A DNA stretch of 64,000 bases from Bacteroidia bacterium (lineage in GTDB: Bacteria; Bacteroidota; Bacteroidia; UKL13-3). Within the stretch, counting starts at the first letter, position 1; each line of letters starts with the position of its first letter. The stretch spans positions 62,001 through 126,000 of the forward strand of contig JAGVLJ010000013.1 of assembly GCA_020049855.1 (NCBI GenBank), written 5' to 3'. The notes beneath the pieces are model-generated. The model was not told the origin of the DNA. It saw only the letters and a list, made by a program, of their open reading frames with translations, and did no database searches. The position numbers and the translations under genes were made by a program. Positions 18,326-33,235 of this stretch are shown one piece after another.

Positions 18326-20467
18326 ATGACCCAGAAAACGAGTCCCATTGAATTGCAGGTAGAAGGAATGACCTGCACTAACTGTGCCCTCACGGTACGC
18401 AAGTACCTTGAGAATCAAAAAATGGAAGACGTGAGTGTAAACTTTGCTACCGGTGAGGTTCGGTTTATGAATATACCCAAGGCCGACCTGACTCAACTGG
18501 GTAAAGGCATTGAGATGCTTGGATATAAAGTAGTCAAAGATGGAGCCGCCCCTCAGGAAAAGAAAAGCCGTTTTGCGTTAGATACATTAGAAGGCAAATT
18601 CTGGTTTTGTGCGCTGTTCACTCTTCCGCTGCTGCTGCATATGGTGTTACCGTTTCCCTGGTTACATCTACCGTTGGTGCAAATCCTGCTCTCGGCACCT
18701 GTGTATTTTCTCGGACTCCCTTTCTTTGGCAAAAGTGCCTTTCAGTCGGTTCGCAACGGTCTGCCTAATATGGACGTGTTGATTTTTACGGGAGCATTTT
18801 CCTCTTTGGTATATAGCCTTATCGGCACCATTCAATTTTGGGGAACACCCGAAGTACACCAGTTTTTATTTTTTGAAACCGGAGCCACCATCATTACGCT
18901 GGTGTTATTGGGAAACCTTATTGAAATGAAGTCGGTGAAAAAAACCACCAGCTCCATTCACGAACTAACGGCCCTGCTCCCGTCTAAGGCTACCCGCATT
19001 GGTAAGGATGCAGCCACCGGTTTTGAAACCAGCGATGAAGTAGAGGTGAAACTGCTGCAGGAAGGGGATATTATTTTTGTGCGCAGCGGAGAAAAAATTC
19101 CGGTAGATGGTATCATCACCGTTGGTAAAGGTTCTATAGATGAAAGCATGCTCACCGGAGAAAGTTTACCGGTATTCAAAATTAAAAATCAGGAGGTGTA
19201 CAGCGGAACTATATTAACCGATGGAGCCTTTCGCTTTAAAGCAACTGCTGTGGGCAAAGCTTCTACCCTTTCACATATTATTAAGATGGTAAAAAATGCT
19301 CAGGCAAGCAAGCCATCCATTCAGAAAATTGGCGATCGGGTAAGTGCAGTATTTGTGCAGGTAGTGATTGCCATTTCACTGATAACATTTTTACTTTCTT
19401 TTTTTGTGCTCGATATTTCAGGAGCCGATTCCCTGATGCGGGCAGTTGCCGTATTGGTAATATCGTGCCCGTGCGCTATGGGACTGGCAACTCCCACTGC
19501 CGTGATGGTGGGCTTGGGTAAAGCAGCAAAAAACGGATTATTGATTAAAGGCGGAGCAACGGTAGAGGAACTAGCCAAAACGCAGGTAGCCATTTTTGAT
19601 AAAACGGGCACACTTACTACCGGAGCATTTGAAATAGGTGAACTAAAAATTTACAATGGCATCGAGCCTGAAATCAAAAATATCATTTACTGCATGGAAG
19701 AATTTTCGGCTCATCCCATTGCACAATCGGTACTAAAACATACGGAATGGAGAAACAACACAGTTGTTTTGTATGATATGAAAGAAGAAAAAGGGCTGGG
19801 ACTTTTTGCCAATGATGCACACGGCAATTCTTTTGCTTTAGGTTCGGAACAAATTTTGACAGCCGCCCCACCCGATGAAACATTTGATTTGTACCTGACC
19901 AAAGACGAGGTTCTGGTTGCTGCCATACGCATAAATGATGAAGTAAAACCGGGAGCGGATAAGGCCATCACTTACTTAAAACAACAAGGCATTAAAACCC
20001 TTTTGCTTAGTGGCGACAAAGAAAGCAAATGTCGGCAGGTGGCCGCTCAGTTGGGCGTGGATGAAGTATATGCCCGCCAGTCTCCGAAACAAAAGCTTGA
20101 CCTGATTGAATCGCTGCGTAAAAAATACGTAGTAAGCATGATTGGAGATGGCATCAATGACGCGCCTGCCCTTTCTAAGGCCAATACAGGTATTTCCCTT
20201 TCAGGAGCCACTGATATAGCCCGTCAATCGGCACAAGTGATTCTATTGGGCAAAAATCTGGATGAGGTGACAAAGGCACACCGGATAGCAAAACTTACGT
20301 ACACTACCATTAAACAAAATTTATTTTGGGCACTGGCCTATAATGTGGTGGCTATTCCATTAGCTGCGCTGGGTTTTTTAAGCCCCATGCTGGGAGCATT
20401 GAGTATGGCTTTTTCAGATGTGGTAGTGATTGGAAACTCATTGAGGTTGGGTACTAAGAAAATTTAA
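18326..20467 (+). CDS. Heavy-metal (copper-type) P1B ATPase
   Basis: N-terminal HMA GMTCTNCALTV; CPC motif (ISCPCAMGLATPTAVMVGLG); DKTGTLT; GDGINDAPAL. Confidence 0.95.
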   Translation: MTQKTSPIELQVEGMTCTNCALTVRKYLENQKMEDVSVNFATGEVRFMNIPKADLTQLGKGIEMLGYKVVKDGAAPQEKKSRFALDTLEGKFWFCALFTLPLLLHMVLPFPWLHLPLVQILLSAPVYFLGLPFFGKSAFQSVRNGLPNMDVLIFTGAFSSLVYSLIGTIQFWGTPEVHQFLFFETGATIITLVLLGNLIEMKSVKKTTSSIHELTALLPSKATRIGKDAATGFETSDEVEVKLLQEGDIIFVRSGEKIPVDGIITVGKGSIDESMLTGESLPVFKIKNQEVYSGTILTDGAFRFKATAVGKASTLSHIIKMVKNAQASKPSIQKIGDRVSAVFVQVVIAISLITFLLSFFVLDISGADSLMRAVAVLVISCPCAMGLATPTAVMVGLGKAAKNGLLIKGGATVEELAKTQVAIFDKTGTLTTGAFEIGELKIYNGIEPEIKNIIYCMEEFSAHPIAQSVLKHTEWRNNTVVLYDMKEEKGLGLFANDAHGNSFALGSEQILTAAPPDETFDLYLTKDEVLVAAIRINDEVKPGADKAITYLKQQGIKTLLLSGDKESKCRQVAAQLGVDEVYARQSPKQKLDLIESLRKKYVVSMIGDGINDAPALSKANTGISLSGATDIARQSAQVILLGKNLDEVTKAHRIAKLTYTTIKQNLFWALAYNVVAIPLAALGFLSPMLGALSMAFSDVVVIGNSLRLGTKKI

Positions 20468-25756: not shown

Positions 25757-25870
25757 AGCAAAAAAATATCACCGAAAATTCTTTCCATTCATTCCACTCT
25801 TTAAGTACATTTACGGCTCATGCAACCGGGCGACCTGAATACCAAACGTTCCCTAATTCATATAAAAAAT

Positions 25871-26425
25871 ATGACCAGCAAAAGTTGCGTACGTATAGTA
25901 CGTGAAAATCTGGAACGTATCGGTTTTATACGGGTACATTACGTGGCACTGGGAGAAGCAGAAATTAGTTACGATCCACAAATTATAAGCGAAGGTTTTC
26001 TGGATGCTCTGCTACGAAACAATGGCTTTGAATTAATCACCGATAAAGAAACGAAACTTATTGAGTTAATTAAAACTTCGGTTATTCAACTTATTTATTA
26101 TGGAGGAAACACCAATTCGCTTATAAGAAACTCTGATTACCTGAGTGAGCGATTAGGACACCCATATGCCTACCTGAGCAAATTATTCTCTGAGAAAACA
26201 GGAACTACACTGGAGAAATACATCATTCTTTTAAAGATTGAAAAAATCAAGGAGTTAATCAGCTACGAAGAAATGACCCTGAGTGAAATTTCCTTTCAGA
26301 TGGGATATAGCAGCGTGCAATACCTGAGCAATCAATTCAAACAATTCACCGGTTATTCGGTAACTGATTATAAAAATTTGACAAACAAACCGCGCACAGC
26401 ACTCCACCAAATCATTAACAACTGA
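25871..26425 (+). CDS. AraC-family regulator with N-terminal HMA-like domain
   Basis: C-terminal HTH: MTLSEISFQMGYSSVQYLSNQFKQFTGYSVTDYKNL; N-term CVRIVRENLERIGFIRVHYVALGEAEISYDP. Confidence 0.85.
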   Translation: MTSKSCVRIVRENLERIGFIRVHYVALGEAEISYDPQIISEGFLDALLRNNGFELITDKETKLIELIKTSVIQLIYYGGNTNSLIRNSDYLSERLGHPYAYLSKLFSEKTGTTLEKYIILLKIEKIKELISYEEMTLSEISFQMGYSSVQYLSNQFKQFTGYSVTDYKNLTNKPRTALHQIINN

Positions 26426-26575: not shown

Positions 26576-26845
26576 ATGAAAATTAAACGAAACATTGCCC
26601 TAAGTGACTCTGGGTTTGTATTTAACCCCACTACGGGCGACTCCTTCTCAACCAACCCAATTGGGATAGAAATTATCAAATTGCTGAAAGAAGGAAAAAA
26701 TGAAGATGAAGTAAAAAAACACTTGATAAAATCCTACATGACCGATGAAGTAACACTTGAAAAAGATTACTACGACTTTGTGAATATGCTACTTAAACTT
26801 CAATTGGCCGAAGGTGATGAAGATAAAGACGAAGCGAAAAATTAA
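26576..26845 (+). CDS. PqqD-like (RRE-fold) peptide chaperone
   Basis: Small protein ALSDSGFVFNPTTGDSFSTNPIGIEIIKLLKEGKNEDEVKKHLIKSYMTDEVTLEKDYYDFVNMLLKLQLAE, typical PqqD fold pattern. Confidence 0.8.
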   Translation: MKIKRNIALSDSGFVFNPTTGDSFSTNPIGIEIIKLLKEGKNEDEVKKHLIKSYMTDEVTLEKDYYDFVNMLLKLQLAEGDEDKDEAKN

Positions 26846-27875
26846 TGTAGCCGTTACGGGACTAAACGCCATTGACAGTCCGGGGCCTGGAATACCTGTA
26901 ATACGTGCGCTTAAAGAAAGTAGTGAGTTTGATGTGCATATCATCGGTCTCTCGTACGAAACACTTGAGCCAGGCATTTACATGCACGATTTGGTGGATA
27001 AAACCTATCAAATACCATTTCCTTCGGCAGGTATTGAAAGTTTACTTACCCGCCTTGGCTATATCAATGCCGTTGAGAAGATTGATGTATTGATTCCAAA
27101 CTTTGATGCGGAGCTATTCAACTTCATGAAACTCACCGAACGCTTAGAAGAAGAAATGGGTATAAAAATGTTTTTACCTACCATTGAGCAGTTTGAAGAG
27201 CGGCATAAATCAAATCTTGCAGAGTTTGGAAAAAAATACGGCATCAAAGTTCCGCACAGTAAAATGATTTTTAATATCTCCGACATACCATCGTTGCGCA
27301 ATGAATTTACATACCCATTAGTGGTAAAAGGAAAATATTACGATGCATCGGTTGCCTACACCCCCGAGCAGGCTGTTACCTGTTTTAATAAAATAAGTAC
27401 CAAGTGGGGCTTGCCCATCATCATTCAGGAGTTTGTTTATGGGCAGGAAGTAAATGTTACAGCCATAGGTGATGGCAAAGGCAATACATTAGGCGCCATA
27501 CCTATGCGAAAGCAATACATTACCGATAAAGGAAAAGCATGGGCGGGCATTTCGCTGGAAGATGAAAAGTTGATAGAGGTAACCGAAAAAGTAATCAAAG
27601 GTTCCAAATGGCGAGGGGGCATGGAAATGGAAATGATTAAAACACGTGATGACGAATATTTCCTTATCGAAATCAATCCGCGATTTCCGGCATGGGTATA
27701 TCTGGCCGTAGGCTGCGGACAAAATCATCCAGAAGCACTTATAAAAATGGCTTTGGGCGAAAAAGTAAAACCATGGAAAAAGTATGATATCGGAAAAATG
27801 TTTATCCGGTATTCGTATGACTTAATTGTAGGATTAGAAGAATTTGAAAAAATCTCAACCCTTGGTGAATTATAA
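26814..27875 (+). CDS. ATP-grasp ligase (carbamoyl-phosphate-synthase/PylC-like)
   Basis: NVAVTGLNAIDSPGPGIPVIRALKE; YPLVVKGKYYDASVAYTPEQA; IIQEFVYGQEVNVTAIGDG; EMEMIKTRDDEYFLIEINPRFPAW; overlaps PqqD ORF. Confidence 0.88.
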   Translation: MMKIKTKRKINVAVTGLNAIDSPGPGIPVIRALKESSEFDVHIIGLSYETLEPGIYMHDLVDKTYQIPFPSAGIESLLTRLGYINAVEKIDVLIPNFDAELFNFMKLTERLEEEMGIKMFLPTIEQFEERHKSNLAEFGKKYGIKVPHSKMIFNISDIPSLRNEFTYPLVVKGKYYDASVAYTPEQAVTCFNKISTKWGLPIIIQEFVYGQEVNVTAIGDGKGNTLGAIPMRKQYITDKGKAWAGISLEDEKLIEVTEKVIKGSKWRGGMEMEMIKTRDDEYFLIEINPRFPAWVYLAVGCGQNHPEALIKMALGEKVKPWKKYDIGKMFIRYSYDLIVGLEEFEKISTLGEL

Positions 27876-27897: not shown

Positions 27898-29256
27898 ATG
27901 AAAAAGATGCAATACGAACGCCCGGTGATTCAGCGCTTGAATACCGGCATAATGAATAAATTCGGCACCCGTACCGAATATGCGCCCGTAACCCATATTG
28001 AAGGAAATGCCGTGAAAGAACTGATTGAAAAATACGGCTCTCCTCTTTTTGTAATTTCAGAAAAAACCATTCGAAACACTTATCGCGAAGCCAACCGTTC
28101 ATTCAACACACGTTACCCTAAAGTACAATTTGCCTGGAGCTACAAAACCAATTACCTGAGTGCCGTATGTAATGTATTTCATCAGGAAGGATCATGGGCC
28201 GAAGTAGTATCCGGTTTTGAATATGAAAAAGCCATTCGGCATGGGGTTCCCGGGAATAAAATTATTTTTAACGGCCCAGATAAAACCGAAGCTGAATTGC
28301 GCACAGCCATTGAGAATGGATCGCCCATTCATATCGATCATTTAGATGAACTTTACCTCATCAAGGAACTATCGGGTGAAATGAAAAAGCGTCCCAAAGT
28401 AGCTATACGGGTAAATATGGATACCGGCATTTACCCAATGTGGGATCGTTTTGGTTTTAACTACGAAAACGGACAGGCATGGGATGCCATTAACAAAATA
28501 ATGCTTTCAAATACTATAGACTTAATTGGGTTGCATTGCCATATCGGAACCTTTATGTTAGCCCCCAGTGCCTACGCAGTGGCAGCCTCCAAATTATGTG
28601 ATTTAGCTATGGGAATTAAAAAGAAATTTAATAAAAACATTCACTACCTGGATTTAGGCGGAGGATTTGCCTCAAAAAATACGCTGAAAGGGTCTTACCT
28701 TCAGGGTGTAGATGCATCACCGGGTTTTGACCAATTTGCCGAAGCAATCAGTACAGCCATCCTGAATGCAGGTTTTGTGGAAGATGAATTGCCCTTGCTA
28801 CTTTTAGAAACAGGAAGAGCTATGATAGATGAAGCGGGCTACCTGCTGGGAACGGTAATTTCAAACAAGCGCCTGTCTGACGGCAGAAGGGCTACCATCA
28901 TGGATTTTGGAGTAAATATTTTATTTACCTCCTTTTGGTACGATCACAAGATAAGCCCTGCACAAGAGTTTAGTCAGTATACTGAAGATGCCGTTTTGTA
29001 CGGCCCCTTGTGTATGAATATAGATGTGGTAAGAGAACATGTAACTTTACCCCCGCTTAAACGAGATGACCAGGTAGTGGTACATACCGTGGGTGCTTAC
29101 AATATGACCCAGTGGATGCAGTTTATTGCACTGCGCCCTGCAATTGTACTGATTGATTGTGATGACAAAGTGCATCAAATTCGCAAAAGAGAAACTGTTG
29201 AAAGTATAGTGAAAGAAGAAATGATGCCCGATTACCTTAAAAGCTTTAAGCTGTAA
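27898..29256 (+). CDS. PLP-dependent alanine-racemase-fold decarboxylase (LysA/ODC group IV-like)
   Basis: FAWSYKTNYLSAVCNVFHQEGSWAEVVSGFEYEKA; GLHCHIGT; HYLDLGGGFA; LLLETGRAMIDEAGYLLGTVI; N-terminal extension MKKMQYERPVIQRLNTGIMNKFG. Confidence 0.88.
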   Translation: MKKMQYERPVIQRLNTGIMNKFGTRTEYAPVTHIEGNAVKELIEKYGSPLFVISEKTIRNTYREANRSFNTRYPKVQFAWSYKTNYLSAVCNVFHQEGSWAEVVSGFEYEKAIRHGVPGNKIIFNGPDKTEAELRTAIENGSPIHIDHLDELYLIKELSGEMKKRPKVAIRVNMDTGIYPMWDRFGFNYENGQAWDAINKIMLSNTIDLIGLHCHIGTFMLAPSAYAVAASKLCDLAMGIKKKFNKNIHYLDLGGGFASKNTLKGSYLQGVDASPGFDQFAEAISTAILNAGFVEDELPLLLLETGRAMIDEAGYLLGTVISNKRLSDGRRATIMDFGVNILFTSFWYDHKISPAQEFSQYTEDAVLYGPLCMNIDVVREHVTLPPLKRDDQVVVHTVGAYNMTQWMQFIALRPAIVLIDCDDKVHQIRKRETVESIVKEEMMPDYLKSFKL

Positions 29257-29265
29257 CAAAAAAGT

Positions 29266-31464
29266 ATGGGTGAGCAATTGAAATTTTGGTTGCAATACTA
29301 CCGCGATGCTACCGTGAACAGCTATGCTCAGATGTTTTTTTCAAACAATCGCTGGTTTGCATTATTGTTGTTACTTGCTTCGTTTGTTGACCCCTTCACC
29401 GGTTTAAGCGGATTAATTGCCCTGCTCATGTCGGTAGCCGCTACACATTGGTTTAAATTTGACCCGGCTTTAAGCCGCAGCGGTGCCTACACCTACAATA
29501 GTTTAATGGTAGGCCTTGCCGTGGGCGTTTATTATACCTTCAACATTCAGTTATTGGTTATTCTGTTGCTCATGTCGGTATTTACGTTACTTATTACCGT
29601 GTGGATGGCTAATATTACACTCAAATCAAATACTCCTTTTTTAAGCCTACCGTTTATTGCCGGAGTGTGGGTAGTTATCCTTAGCACCCGAAATTATGCA
29701 GCAATTGGCTTAAGCGAACGAGGTATTTACACCATAAATGAATTATGGAGCTATGGCGGTGAAACATTGGTAAATTTCTACCAGAAGTTAAATCACCTTC
29801 CAATTCCGGCATTTGTTGATGTGTACCTAAAATCGCTAGGTGCAATCTATTTTCAATACAATATTATAGCTGGAATAGCGATTGCTCTGGGTTTATTGCT
29901 CCATTCGCGCATTTCTTTTTTATTATCGCTGGTTGGTTTTACCACAGGCTACCTGTTTTATCATTTTTTACAGGGAGGGTACTCCGAAATGATGTATAGC
30001 TATATCGGTTTTAATTTTATTCTTTCTGCTATTGCCATAGGTGGCTTTTTCCTTATTCCATCGGGAAGATCATTTTTATTGGTAATTATTTGTACTCCCC
30101 TTATCGCGATCCTTATCAGTGCTCTTGGGTCATTGGTATCGGTTTATCAGTTACCCTTGTATTCACTCCCATTCACCTTAATGGTTATGCTTTTGTTATT
30201 TGTATTACGATTACGATACCAAGAGAGTAAGCCACAACTGGTACTTTTACAACAATATTCCCCCGAAAAAAATCTATACAAACACTTGTATCGAAAAGAG
30301 CGTTTTCAAAATGAGACCTACTTCCATATTCACCTTCCCTTTTTCGGGATATGGCATATCTCACAAGGTCATGATGGCCACATCACCCATTTAGAAGACT
30401 GGAAATATGCATGGGATTTTGTAGTAACAGATGATAATCAAAAAACCTTTAAACTTCCCGGAACTGATGTTACTGATTTTTATTGTTACAACCTGCCCGT
30501 GCTTGCACCTGCTGCCGGATATGTGACAGAAATACTCGATGAAGTAGCCGACAATACTATTGGGAATGTGAACAGAGAGCAAAACTGGGGTAACGCAATT
30601 GTGATAAAACATGGCGAGTTCATGTTTAGTAAAATTACTCACCTAAAAGGTGGCAGTTTAAAAGTAAAAACAGGAGACTACGTAAAAAAGGGGGAAGTTA
30701 TTGCCACTTGTGGAAATTCGGGACGCTCACCTGAACCACATATCCATTTTCAGCTACAGGCAACACCATACATCGGTTCTAAAACATTGCGCTACCCTAT
30801 CAGTTACTATGTGAGTTACAAAAATAACGCAGTCACTTTTCATGCTTTTGATTATCCAAAGCAGGGAGAATACATAGCACGTGTAGCAGCCACCCCGCTG
30901 ATAAAAAATGCCTTTCAATTTATACCTGGAGAAGAATTAATGTTTGAGTATGTTAACGAAAATGGAACAAAAGAAACCCTTAAGTGGGAAGTATTTACCG
31001 ATGCCTGGAATAACTCTTACCTGTACTGCCACAACAGCAAATCAACCGCCTGGTTTGTAAACAACGAAACCCTCCACTACTTCACCGATTTTGAAGGAGA
31101 CAAAAAATCGATGCTCTACGCATTTTACCTTGGGGCACATAAAATACTAATGGGATATTATCCGCAAATAGAATTAACAGATCACCTTCCCATTGAAGGT
31201 TTTTTTCAAGGACCTGTAAAATACCTTCAAGACATTTTTGCTCCGTTTTATCTTTTTTTACATGGCGATTACTCTATGAAATTTACTTTTGCTGACGAAC
31301 AAATACAACCTGAAATCATTACAATTGAAAGCAGTGCCACGGCTTATATCGGAAAAACCCGCAGCCGAAATATGAAGTTTAAAATAATCCTTCAAGAAAA
31401 TCATATTGCCGAGTTTACTATTACCGAAAAGGGGGAAACCAGAACAGCCAAATGGATAAATTAA
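29266..31464 (+). CDS. Urea-transporter-family membrane domain fused to M23-type peptidase domain
   Basis: N-term multi-TM FVDPFTGLSGLIALLMSVAATHWF..SGAYTYNSLMVGLAVG; C-term VKTGDYVKKGEVIATCGNSGRSPEPHIHFQLQ (HxH of M23). Confidence 0.82.
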   Translation: MGEQLKFWLQYYRDATVNSYAQMFFSNNRWFALLLLLASFVDPFTGLSGLIALLMSVAATHWFKFDPALSRSGAYTYNSLMVGLAVGVYYTFNIQLLVILLLMSVFTLLITVWMANITLKSNTPFLSLPFIAGVWVVILSTRNYAAIGLSERGIYTINELWSYGGETLVNFYQKLNHLPIPAFVDVYLKSLGAIYFQYNIIAGIAIALGLLLHSRISFLLSLVGFTTGYLFYHFLQGGYSEMMYSYIGFNFILSAIAIGGFFLIPSGRSFLLVIICTPLIAILISALGSLVSVYQLPLYSLPFTLMVMLLLFVLRLRYQESKPQLVLLQQYSPEKNLYKHLYRKERFQNETYFHIHLPFFGIWHISQGHDGHITHLEDWKYAWDFVVTDDNQKTFKLPGTDVTDFYCYNLPVLAPAAGYVTEILDEVADNTIGNVNREQNWGNAIVIKHGEFMFSKITHLKGGSLKVKTGDYVKKGEVIATCGNSGRSPEPHIHFQLQATPYIGSKTLRYPISYYVSYKNNAVTFHAFDYPKQGEYIARVAATPLIKNAFQFIPGEELMFEYVNENGTKETLKWEVFTDAWNNSYLYCHNSKSTAWFVNNETLHYFTDFEGDKKSMLYAFYLGAHKILMGYYPQIELTDHLPIEGFFQGPVKYLQDIFAPFYLFLHGDYSMKFTFADEQIQPEIITIESSATAYIGKTRSRNMKFKIILQENHIAEFTITEKGETRTAKWIN

Positions 31465-32618
31465 TTTTTTATTTTTTCTCTGTATTCTTTATGGTTCCGC
31501 ATTTTTTAAAGGCACAGGATGAACCGATTTTCGATTCAAAAATGGTAGAAGATTCTACTTACAGGTTTTATTTAGATGGCGACTGGTGGAGTGTAATCTC
31601 ATATGGTGAGGCCGCATTAAAAGAAAACATTGATTACTATTACCTTCGTATGCGGTTGGGTATTGCCTATTATAAATTAGGAAGATTCAGAATGGCTATT
31701 CCTCATTTTGAAAAAGCCAATGAAATGAATCAGTTAGAAGAGGGCGCAAAGGAATATTTATATTGGTGTTATATTTACTCTGATAGGTTTGAAGATGCGG
31801 GAAAGTTGAGTAAAACATTTTCGGCAGAAACCGCGAAAAGTGCAGGAACAGAAAAGCAAAAATCGATTGCATTCTTCCTGCTGGAAAGCGGAACAAAAAT
31901 AGCCGACAAATCAAGTCTATTTGATCCCTTATGGTACATGCAGGGAGGAACCGGACACATGCTTAAAAAACAGATTTACTTTTTTCAAAGTGCCACTTTT
32001 TTAAGCCAAAATACGTACTGGGGCAGCTATAAGCAACTGGAATATTATGCAAAAGTGAATATGCCCATTGCAAAGAGTTGGTGTTTAGCCCCTGCCTTTC
32101 ATATTACAAACCTTAATGCCTCTCCATACTCAAACAGCACGTATTTCTTAGGTTCGTTAAATGCAACAAAGCAACTGAAGTTATTTCAACCTCACCTTAA
32201 TGCCTCCTGGTCCAATCTTTTTGGAACCTCCCAAATTCAAACTGGGACAGGCTTAAAATATTATCCCTTTGGAAATAATAATTTATGTATAGCCGTTTCT
32301 GCCAATGTGCTTGTGCCTTCAACCGGAAATGCAGCCTTTCATTTTCAACATAACGTAAGTTACGCACCAAATATAAAATGGACATTTAGCGGATGGTTCT
32401 ATCATGGCAACGCTTATTTGTTTAATGAGAACAATGGATACTTAGTTAATAGTTCGTATGATTTATTACGTAACCGAAGTTCACTGATGGCTACCTATAG
32501 TTTACACCGCCATCTTGATATTTATACGTTGATTCAGAACGAGCAAAAAACAGAATATTTTAATGGAAACAATTATCAGTTCAATAATTTTATTTTAGGA
32601 ATTAAATATATCCCGTGA
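31452..32618 (+). CDS. TPR protein with outer-membrane-like C-terminus
   Basis: Signal peptide; YYYLRMRLGIAYYKLGRFRMAIPHFEKANEM TPR; beta-rich C-term ending FILGIKYIP; overlaps upstream gene. Confidence 0.72.
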   Translation: MDKLIFYFFSVFFMVPHFLKAQDEPIFDSKMVEDSTYRFYLDGDWWSVISYGEAALKENIDYYYLRMRLGIAYYKLGRFRMAIPHFEKANEMNQLEEGAKEYLYWCYIYSDRFEDAGKLSKTFSAETAKSAGTEKQKSIAFFLLESGTKIADKSSLFDPLWYMQGGTGHMLKKQIYFFQSATFLSQNTYWGSYKQLEYYAKVNMPIAKSWCLAPAFHITNLNASPYSNSTYFLGSLNATKQLKLFQPHLNASWSNLFGTSQIQTGTGLKYYPFGNNNLCIAVSANVLVPSTGNAAFHFQHNVSYAPNIKWTFSGWFYHGNAYLFNENNGYLVNSSYDLLRNRSSLMATYSLHRHLDIYTLIQNEQKTEYFNGNNYQFNNFILGIKYIP

Positions 32619-33235
32619 GTATGAAACGCATCATCATTTTAGCCATTACCTGTGCCGCTTACATTTCAAATGTATTTGCACAAAACGAAGCCAAATTACA
32701 AGCTGCTTTCAGCAAAAGCTATCAGCATGAGAATAGTGCAGATTACAAAAGTGCAATTAATGCCGTAAAGGAAGTCTACGAGGAAACAAACTACGATGCA
32801 AACTTAAGAATGGGTTGGTTAACATATAAGGCAGGAATGTACACCGAGTCAATGGGATATTATGCAAAATCCATTAATCTGATGCCTTACTCAATTGAAG
32901 CTAAACTTGGGTACGTAAATCCGGCTGCCGCGGCAGGATTATGGGAAAAAGTAATTGACCAATACCATAAAATTCTGGTTATTGACCCACAAAATACTAC
33001 AGTGAATTATAGAATGGGATTGTACTGTTACAACAAGAAAGACTATAAATCGGCTTATGGTTATTTTGAGAAAGTGGTGAACCTCTATCCTTTTGACTAT
33101 GACAGTGAATTAATGTTTGCCTGGACTAACTTTCAACTGGGTAAATTCAGAGAAGCTAAAATCATTTTTAATAAAGTTTTGTTAATGTCTCCGGGTGATA
33201 AATCGGCTTTGGAAGGATTATCATTGATAAAATAA
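32615..33235 (+). CDS. Periplasmic TPR protein
   Basis: Signal peptide; DPQNTTVNYRMGLYCYNKKDYKSAYGYFEKVVNLYP; 4-nt overlap with upstream gene. Confidence 0.75.
   Translation: MSMKRIIILAITCAAYISNVFAQNEAKLQAAFSKSYQHENSADYKSAINAVKEVYEETNYDANLRMGWLTYKAGMYTESMGYYAKSINLMPYSIEAKLGYVNPAAAAGLWEKVIDQYHKILVIDPQNTTVNYRMGLYCYNKKDYKSAYGYFEKVVNLYPFDYDSELMFAWTNFQLGKFREAKIIFNKVLLMSPGDKSALEGLSLIK

Follow-up and report, generated by a model that had tools for sequence, protein, structure and literature searches.

A YxxP-leader-like tag at the N-terminus of a PLP decarboxylase from Bacteroidota and its probable reader, an operon-encoded PqqD-type RRE

The PLP decarboxylase (452 aa) encoded at positions 27898-29256 (+ strand) of the window, i.e. 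the whole stretch of 64,000 nucleotides analysed in this work, starts with MKKMQYERPVIQRLNTGIMNKFGTRTEYAPVTHIEG and carries at its N-terminus a leader-like docking tag (residues 1-24; 27898-27969, +), which is conserved in 149 operons and disordered in the AlphaFold model. We propose, with a probability of roughly 0.8, that this disordered YxxP-type tag docks the decarboxylase on the PqqD protein of the same operon, in a complex that most likely includes the ATP-grasp ligase too and thereby couples the ligation of a small molecule to its decarboxylation. The first ~24 residues would then constitute a recognition tag of the YxxP-leader type borne by a metabolic enzyme and not by a precursor peptide. 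According to this proposal the PqqD-like RRE would bind the YERPxI part as a β-strand, with its Asn27 pinning the kink at the tag Pro and its Asp64 forming a bond with the hydroxyl group of the tag Tyr.

The putative reader is an 89-aa discrete RRE of the PqqD type (26576-26845, +), recognized by its match to PF05402, its similarity to TbiB1, and its residue conservation and covariation. The first-pass annotation had placed a PqqD-like gene two genes upstream of the decarboxylase, and the profile comparison confirms it (PF05402: 34.8 bits vs. the curated cutoff of 23.4). The end of pqqD is overlapped by the start of the gene for an ATP-grasp ligase (ATG start, 26817-27875, +; PF15632/PF02655 and PRK12767-like profiles), while the decarboxylase is followed by a fusion protein (29266-31464, +; PF03253, PF01551) with a channel of the urea-transporter family and an M23 peptidase domain, a conserved operon member that adjoins in nearly all loci. 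The order PqqD - ATP-grasp - decarboxylase - urea-transporter/M23 is nearly fixed, and two TPR proteins (31452-32618 and 32615-33235, both +) are frequent members of the operon.

The same annotation regarded the N-terminus of the decarboxylase as an unusual extension, which proved to be real: alignments to the LysA and FslC profiles begin no earlier than residue 32-33, and that to the solved structure of FigC begins at residue 34, hence residues 1-26 are an addition to the enzyme. These ~26 residues follow the pattern YERPVIxxLNxGxMNKFG (tag peptide in the window: MKKMQYERPVIQRLNTGIMNKFG) and comprise two conserved motifs, namely YERPVI (residues 6-11; 27913-27930, +), a putative RRE-binding motif of the type YxxPx[I/L/V], and NKFG (residues 20-23; 27955-27966, +). 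Among 92 non-redundant homologs Y6, E7, R8, P9, N20, K21 and G23 are invariant, and residues 6-24 match the enzyme domain in their degree of conservation (mean column entropy 0.69 vs. 0.78 bits). In the wider set of 149 Bacteroidota operons with both the decarboxylase and the PqqD gene, P9 and K21 are found in 149/149 and G23 in 148/149 sequences, while position 6 is occupied by Tyr in 129 and by Phe in 20 of them; YERP/FERP is nearly invariant. As judged from the alignments, such conservation is far from chance. The claimed likeness to lasso-peptide leaders stands only in part: the segment does look like a YxxP element recognized by RREs, but it is an incomplete lasso leader, with the Gly at +11 from the Tyr (in lasso leaders it is found at about +9) and with neither a lasso protease nor a cyclase found among the genes of the operon. 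YERPVI fits the published [Y/W]xxPx[L/V/I/F/A] motif (PMC13381572), and NKFG, by analogy to the LppB-LppA complex, would fall outside the expected RRE contact zone.

The AlphaFold2 model of the homolog L036 is of high quality (mean pLDDT 89.5, pTM 0.87, most of the domain >90), with the exception of tag residues 7-26, for which pLDDT drops below 50. The model thereby supports a tag that is disordered on the enzyme alone; strong conservation combined with predicted disorder is what one would expect of a docking motif. When the ATP-grasp protein and the decarboxylase of L036 were joined into an artificial read-through chain, the tag was again disordered (pLDDT about 28), which lends no support to its contact with the ATP-grasp ligase. 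The model describes a monomer, and relatives of the decarboxylase are homodimeric, thus the tag could pack on the partner subunit. This brings in an alternative, in which the tag serves the decarboxylase dimer as a structural element or a lid, unrelated to PqqD, and the two genes co-occur owing to operon inheritance. The tag is always found with this decarboxylase clade, and conservation alone cannot separate the two readings; however, the low pLDDT of the tag and the features of PqqD described below speak against such an element, and we consider it unlikely.

Among solved structures, TbiB1, a lasso RRE, is alone in being related to the PqqD protein with a significant E-value (1.7e-7). In the complex of LppB with LppA the leader is hydrogen-bonded by N33 of LppB, through its backbone at the kink formed by the Pro, and by D70, through its Tyr; binding is almost abolished by N33A and reduced by D70A (PMC13381572). 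Via the TbiB1 alignment and the D-x-x-x-F spacing these residues can be matched to N27 (26654-26656, +) and D64 (26765-26767, +) of the PqqD protein, which we predict to read the leader-like tag. Asn27 is present in 149/149 operons, and Asp64 in 127 of the 128 intact pairs with a Tyr tag, the other one having Asn. The combinations of tag residue 6 and PqqD residue 64 are Y-D (127), Y-N (1), F-Y (18), F-H (1) and F-F (1); these counts leave out L014, whose PqqD is broken up by a stretch of Ns in the assembly and which was therefore rejected as an exception to the Asp rule. Thus, the Asp is kept where the tag offers a hydroxyl group to bind and lost where it does not. Position 64 alone among the PqqD columns distinguishes Tyr and Phe tags completely, and among the columns of PqqD, the ATP-grasp protein and the decarboxylase it exhibits the highest normalised mutual information with tag position 6 (0.81; next best: 0.41). 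Because the Phe tags are essentially confined to a single clade of the decarboxylase-domain tree (1-2 changes), this covariation represents mainly one coordinated switch. One locus inside the Phe-tag clade (L250) has a Tyr tag together with Asn at position 64 of PqqD.

With the YxxP-reader residues retained in PqqD and its Asp tracking the Tyr/Phe variation, the suggestion of the first-pass annotation that the decarboxylase is docked through its tag appears well supported, as far as sequence data can tell; physical binding, the role of the ATP-grasp ligase, the substrate and the function of NKFG are inferred. Against the dimer element stand a tag that fits a known RRE-binding motif, a PqqD with the matching reader residues, and a single column, D64, that separates the tags better than any other in the three proteins. 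The analogous search for covariation of NKFG with columns of the ATP-grasp protein or the decarboxylase domain revealed no outstanding partner.

The distribution of the tag is consistent with docking on PqqD. The phylum-wide search of 396 genomes was carried out with the enzyme domain only, and is thus unbiased by the tag. Relatives with at least 49% identity were found in 34/396 genomes, and the next ones are only ~31% identical, which leaves a clean gap; all decarboxylases examined on the near side of it, down to 48% identity, are tagged. The ATP-grasp protein is found in exactly the same 34/396 genomes, as expected of an obligate operon. All tagged decarboxylases whose surroundings could be examined are accompanied by PqqD, encoded in the operon itself or, for the one split operon, at another site of the genome (at a few loci, e.g. 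L019, the check was blocked by contig ends), and no tagged decarboxylase was found in a genome shown to lack PqqD. On the far side, 23 homologs with 25-30% identity, including the second copy from the source genome itself, lack a YxxP-like motif ahead of the domain, and the PqqD profile found no match in the DNA around them (mostly about 5-8 kb, in some cases less). The claim that the tag is conserved only together with PqqD is thus borne out at the checkable tagged loci and by the 23 untagged relatives without a nearby PqqD, and sequence comparison establishes that the tag exists, that it is conserved, that it is restricted to PqqD-bearing operons, and that one of its residues co-varies with one in PqqD.

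A few apparent exceptions were resolved. For L113 and L119 PqqD is located farther out than the first flank, as seen in L142 and L143. L148 possesses a divergent PqqD-like ORF with another gene intervening, and L079 contains the decarboxylase alone, with PqqD and ATP-grasp on another contig of the same genome. The reading frame between the PqqD-like gene and the ATP-grasp gene of L148 encodes 665 aa and breaks the usual order, and neither part of the split operon (L079 and L262, one genome) is found beside a detectable urea-transporter/M23 gene. We also observed two copies of the operon in one genome (L014 and L023, UBA4659), and a tagged decarboxylase divided into two overlapping pieces in different frames (L259 and L260 in G586), due to a frameshift or a sequencing error.

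The search for a free peptide with the same motif was carried out with a 26-column profile of the tag against 297 phylum and 64 family genomes. It returned no free short ORF with the tag: above the noise only decarboxylases were matched in these about 360 genomes, and the 19 weak matches inspected were chance-like, several of them in very short or out-of-frame ORFs. A strong match in G029 was rejected as a precursor, as it turned out to be a contig-edge fragment of a tagged decarboxylase. Similarly, no conserved small ORF besides pqqD was found in 94 loci, and other clusters of small ORFs were dismissed, as their positions fit antisense or out-of-frame shadows of large genes. As a consequence, the tag is the only leader-like candidate found for the RRE in the operon. 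A RiPP precursor with a variable core was rejected, since the conserved decarboxylase follows directly after the tag, and so was a lasso gene cluster: no short leader-core precursor was found, the tag being fused to a 452-aa enzyme, and neither a B2 cysteine peptidase nor an asparagine-synthetase-like cyclase was matched among the seven operon and neighbouring proteins.

These results also bear on another alternative, in which the tag acts as a cleavable leader, the product being the matured decarboxylase or the released peptide. RREs of the leader type often present precursors to a protease, and the operon does encode an M23 domain; however, as part of a membrane protein this domain would probably lie outside the cytoplasm, none of the operon genes was found to encode a cysteine leader peptidase, and instead of a variable core the conserved tag runs directly into the enzyme. 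We regard cleavage as very unlikely.

The enzyme itself (27994-29253, +; PF02784, PF00278) is a PLP decarboxylase of the alanine-racemase fold and belongs to the FigC/BtrK/DAPDC clade. It exhibits the features of fold type III, with both decarboxylase domains present and K83, H213, GGG254-256 and C372 (L036 numbering) invariant. Its closest solved relative, by sequence as well as by fold, is FigC/FslC (7kh2; E-value 2.8e-55, also the best Foldseek match), with about 30% identity; other solved structures matched were 7ru7 and 2j66. Identity with LysA was rejected (214 bits vs. the TIGR01048 equivalog cutoff of 297.9), also because the Arg of the Arg-Pro-x-x-Tyr segment, which serves the DAP substrate in LysA, is replaced by Thr in the window protein, as aligned with 1twi. 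Identity with the N-citrylornithine decarboxylase FigC/FslC was rejected as well (226 bits vs. the NF041039 cutoff of 500), and FigC works with an NIS synthetase, whereas the decarboxylase described here is accompanied by the ATP-grasp/PqqD pair. BtrK from butirosin biosynthesis, a decarboxylase of the same clade that acts on a tethered amino acid, is likewise paired with an ATP-grasp ligase, BtrJ. The BtrK/BtrJ/BtrI system, however, uses a separate acyl-carrier protein, and to our knowledge it has neither an RRE nor a leader-like tag. Members of the clade (FigC, SbnH, AcsE, MccE, BtrK) use acylated or tethered amino acids as substrates (PMC7857480), which suits a pair of enzymes that ligate and then decarboxylate.

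Two of these enzymes, MccE, whose substrate is a RiPP intermediate, and BtrK, which decarboxylates Glu attached to the carrier BtrI (PMC7857480), provide the precedent for a more far-reaching alternative, in which the tag, presented by PqqD, would itself be ligated to a small acid or amino acid by the ATP-grasp protein, most simply at Lys21, and the attached group would then be processed by the fused decarboxylase. An operon with an ATP-grasp protein and no other carrier or precursor agrees with it, as does a Lys invariant in 149/149 sequences and located in the second motif, beyond the zone where the RRE is expected to bind. Against it, the tag remains disordered in the ATP-grasp-decarboxylase model, no tag column clearly covaries with the ATP-grasp protein, and the conserved Lys could equally serve binding, hence we put it forward as a tentative possibility. 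It is speculative, too, that the decarboxylase is its own carrier in a leader-directed, carrier-protein-free assembly line for small molecules across Bacteroidota, with the NKFG Lys of an RRE-presented tag loaded by the ATP-grasp ligase.

As regards docking on PqqD, pairs of YxxP leaders and discrete RREs are already known from lasso and LPP RiPPs (TbiB1-leader: 5v1v; LppB-LppA: 9x8z; PbaB1-PbaA: 9x90); what appears to be new here is the location of the tag on a metabolic enzyme. The operon shares with these pairs a TbiB1-related PqqD-type reader, a YxxPx[I/L/V] motif and the conserved Asn and Asp, but differs in that the tag belongs to a 452-aa enzyme and that the operon yielded no short precursor, no variable core and neither a lasso protease nor a cyclase. 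An element of peptide modification covalently fused to an enzyme is also found in borosins, where the fused methyltransferase modifies its own C-terminal RiPP core; here, in contrast, the element is an N-terminal recognition motif. A further likeness concerns LppA, in which a second conserved motif likewise follows the RRE contact zone, and whose conserved residues beyond that zone are thought to meet the modifying enzymes (PMC13381572). Our literature search, of incomplete coverage, retrieved neither a description of this operon nor an RRE-type tag at the N-terminus of a metabolic enzyme without a precursor peptide.

RREs are regarded as readers of RiPP precursors, and many members of the PqqD family have no identified precursor. 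Here, in a widespread family, the only leader-like sequence found in the operon is the N-terminus of an enzyme, and the covarying residues suggest that it is read by the RRE, i.e. that readers thought to serve precursors only can also recruit ordinary enzymes. If the binding is true, the definition of RRE partners would extend from precursor peptides to enzymes, the N-termini of neighbouring enzymes would become candidates in the mining of orphan RREs, and the uncharacterised ATP-grasp/decarboxylase/urea-transporter-M23 operon would gain a testable assembly logic.

In the urea-transporter/M23 fusion the TH...A.DF, H and PHxH motifs are all conserved, thus its M23 peptidase may be active. Upstream of pqqD the window encodes an AraC-type regulator (25820-26425, +; PF12833), which occurs at about 29 of the loci studied and shows a weak metal-binding-like match at its N-terminus; a heavy-metal P-type ATPase is encoded farther upstream, at 18326-20467.
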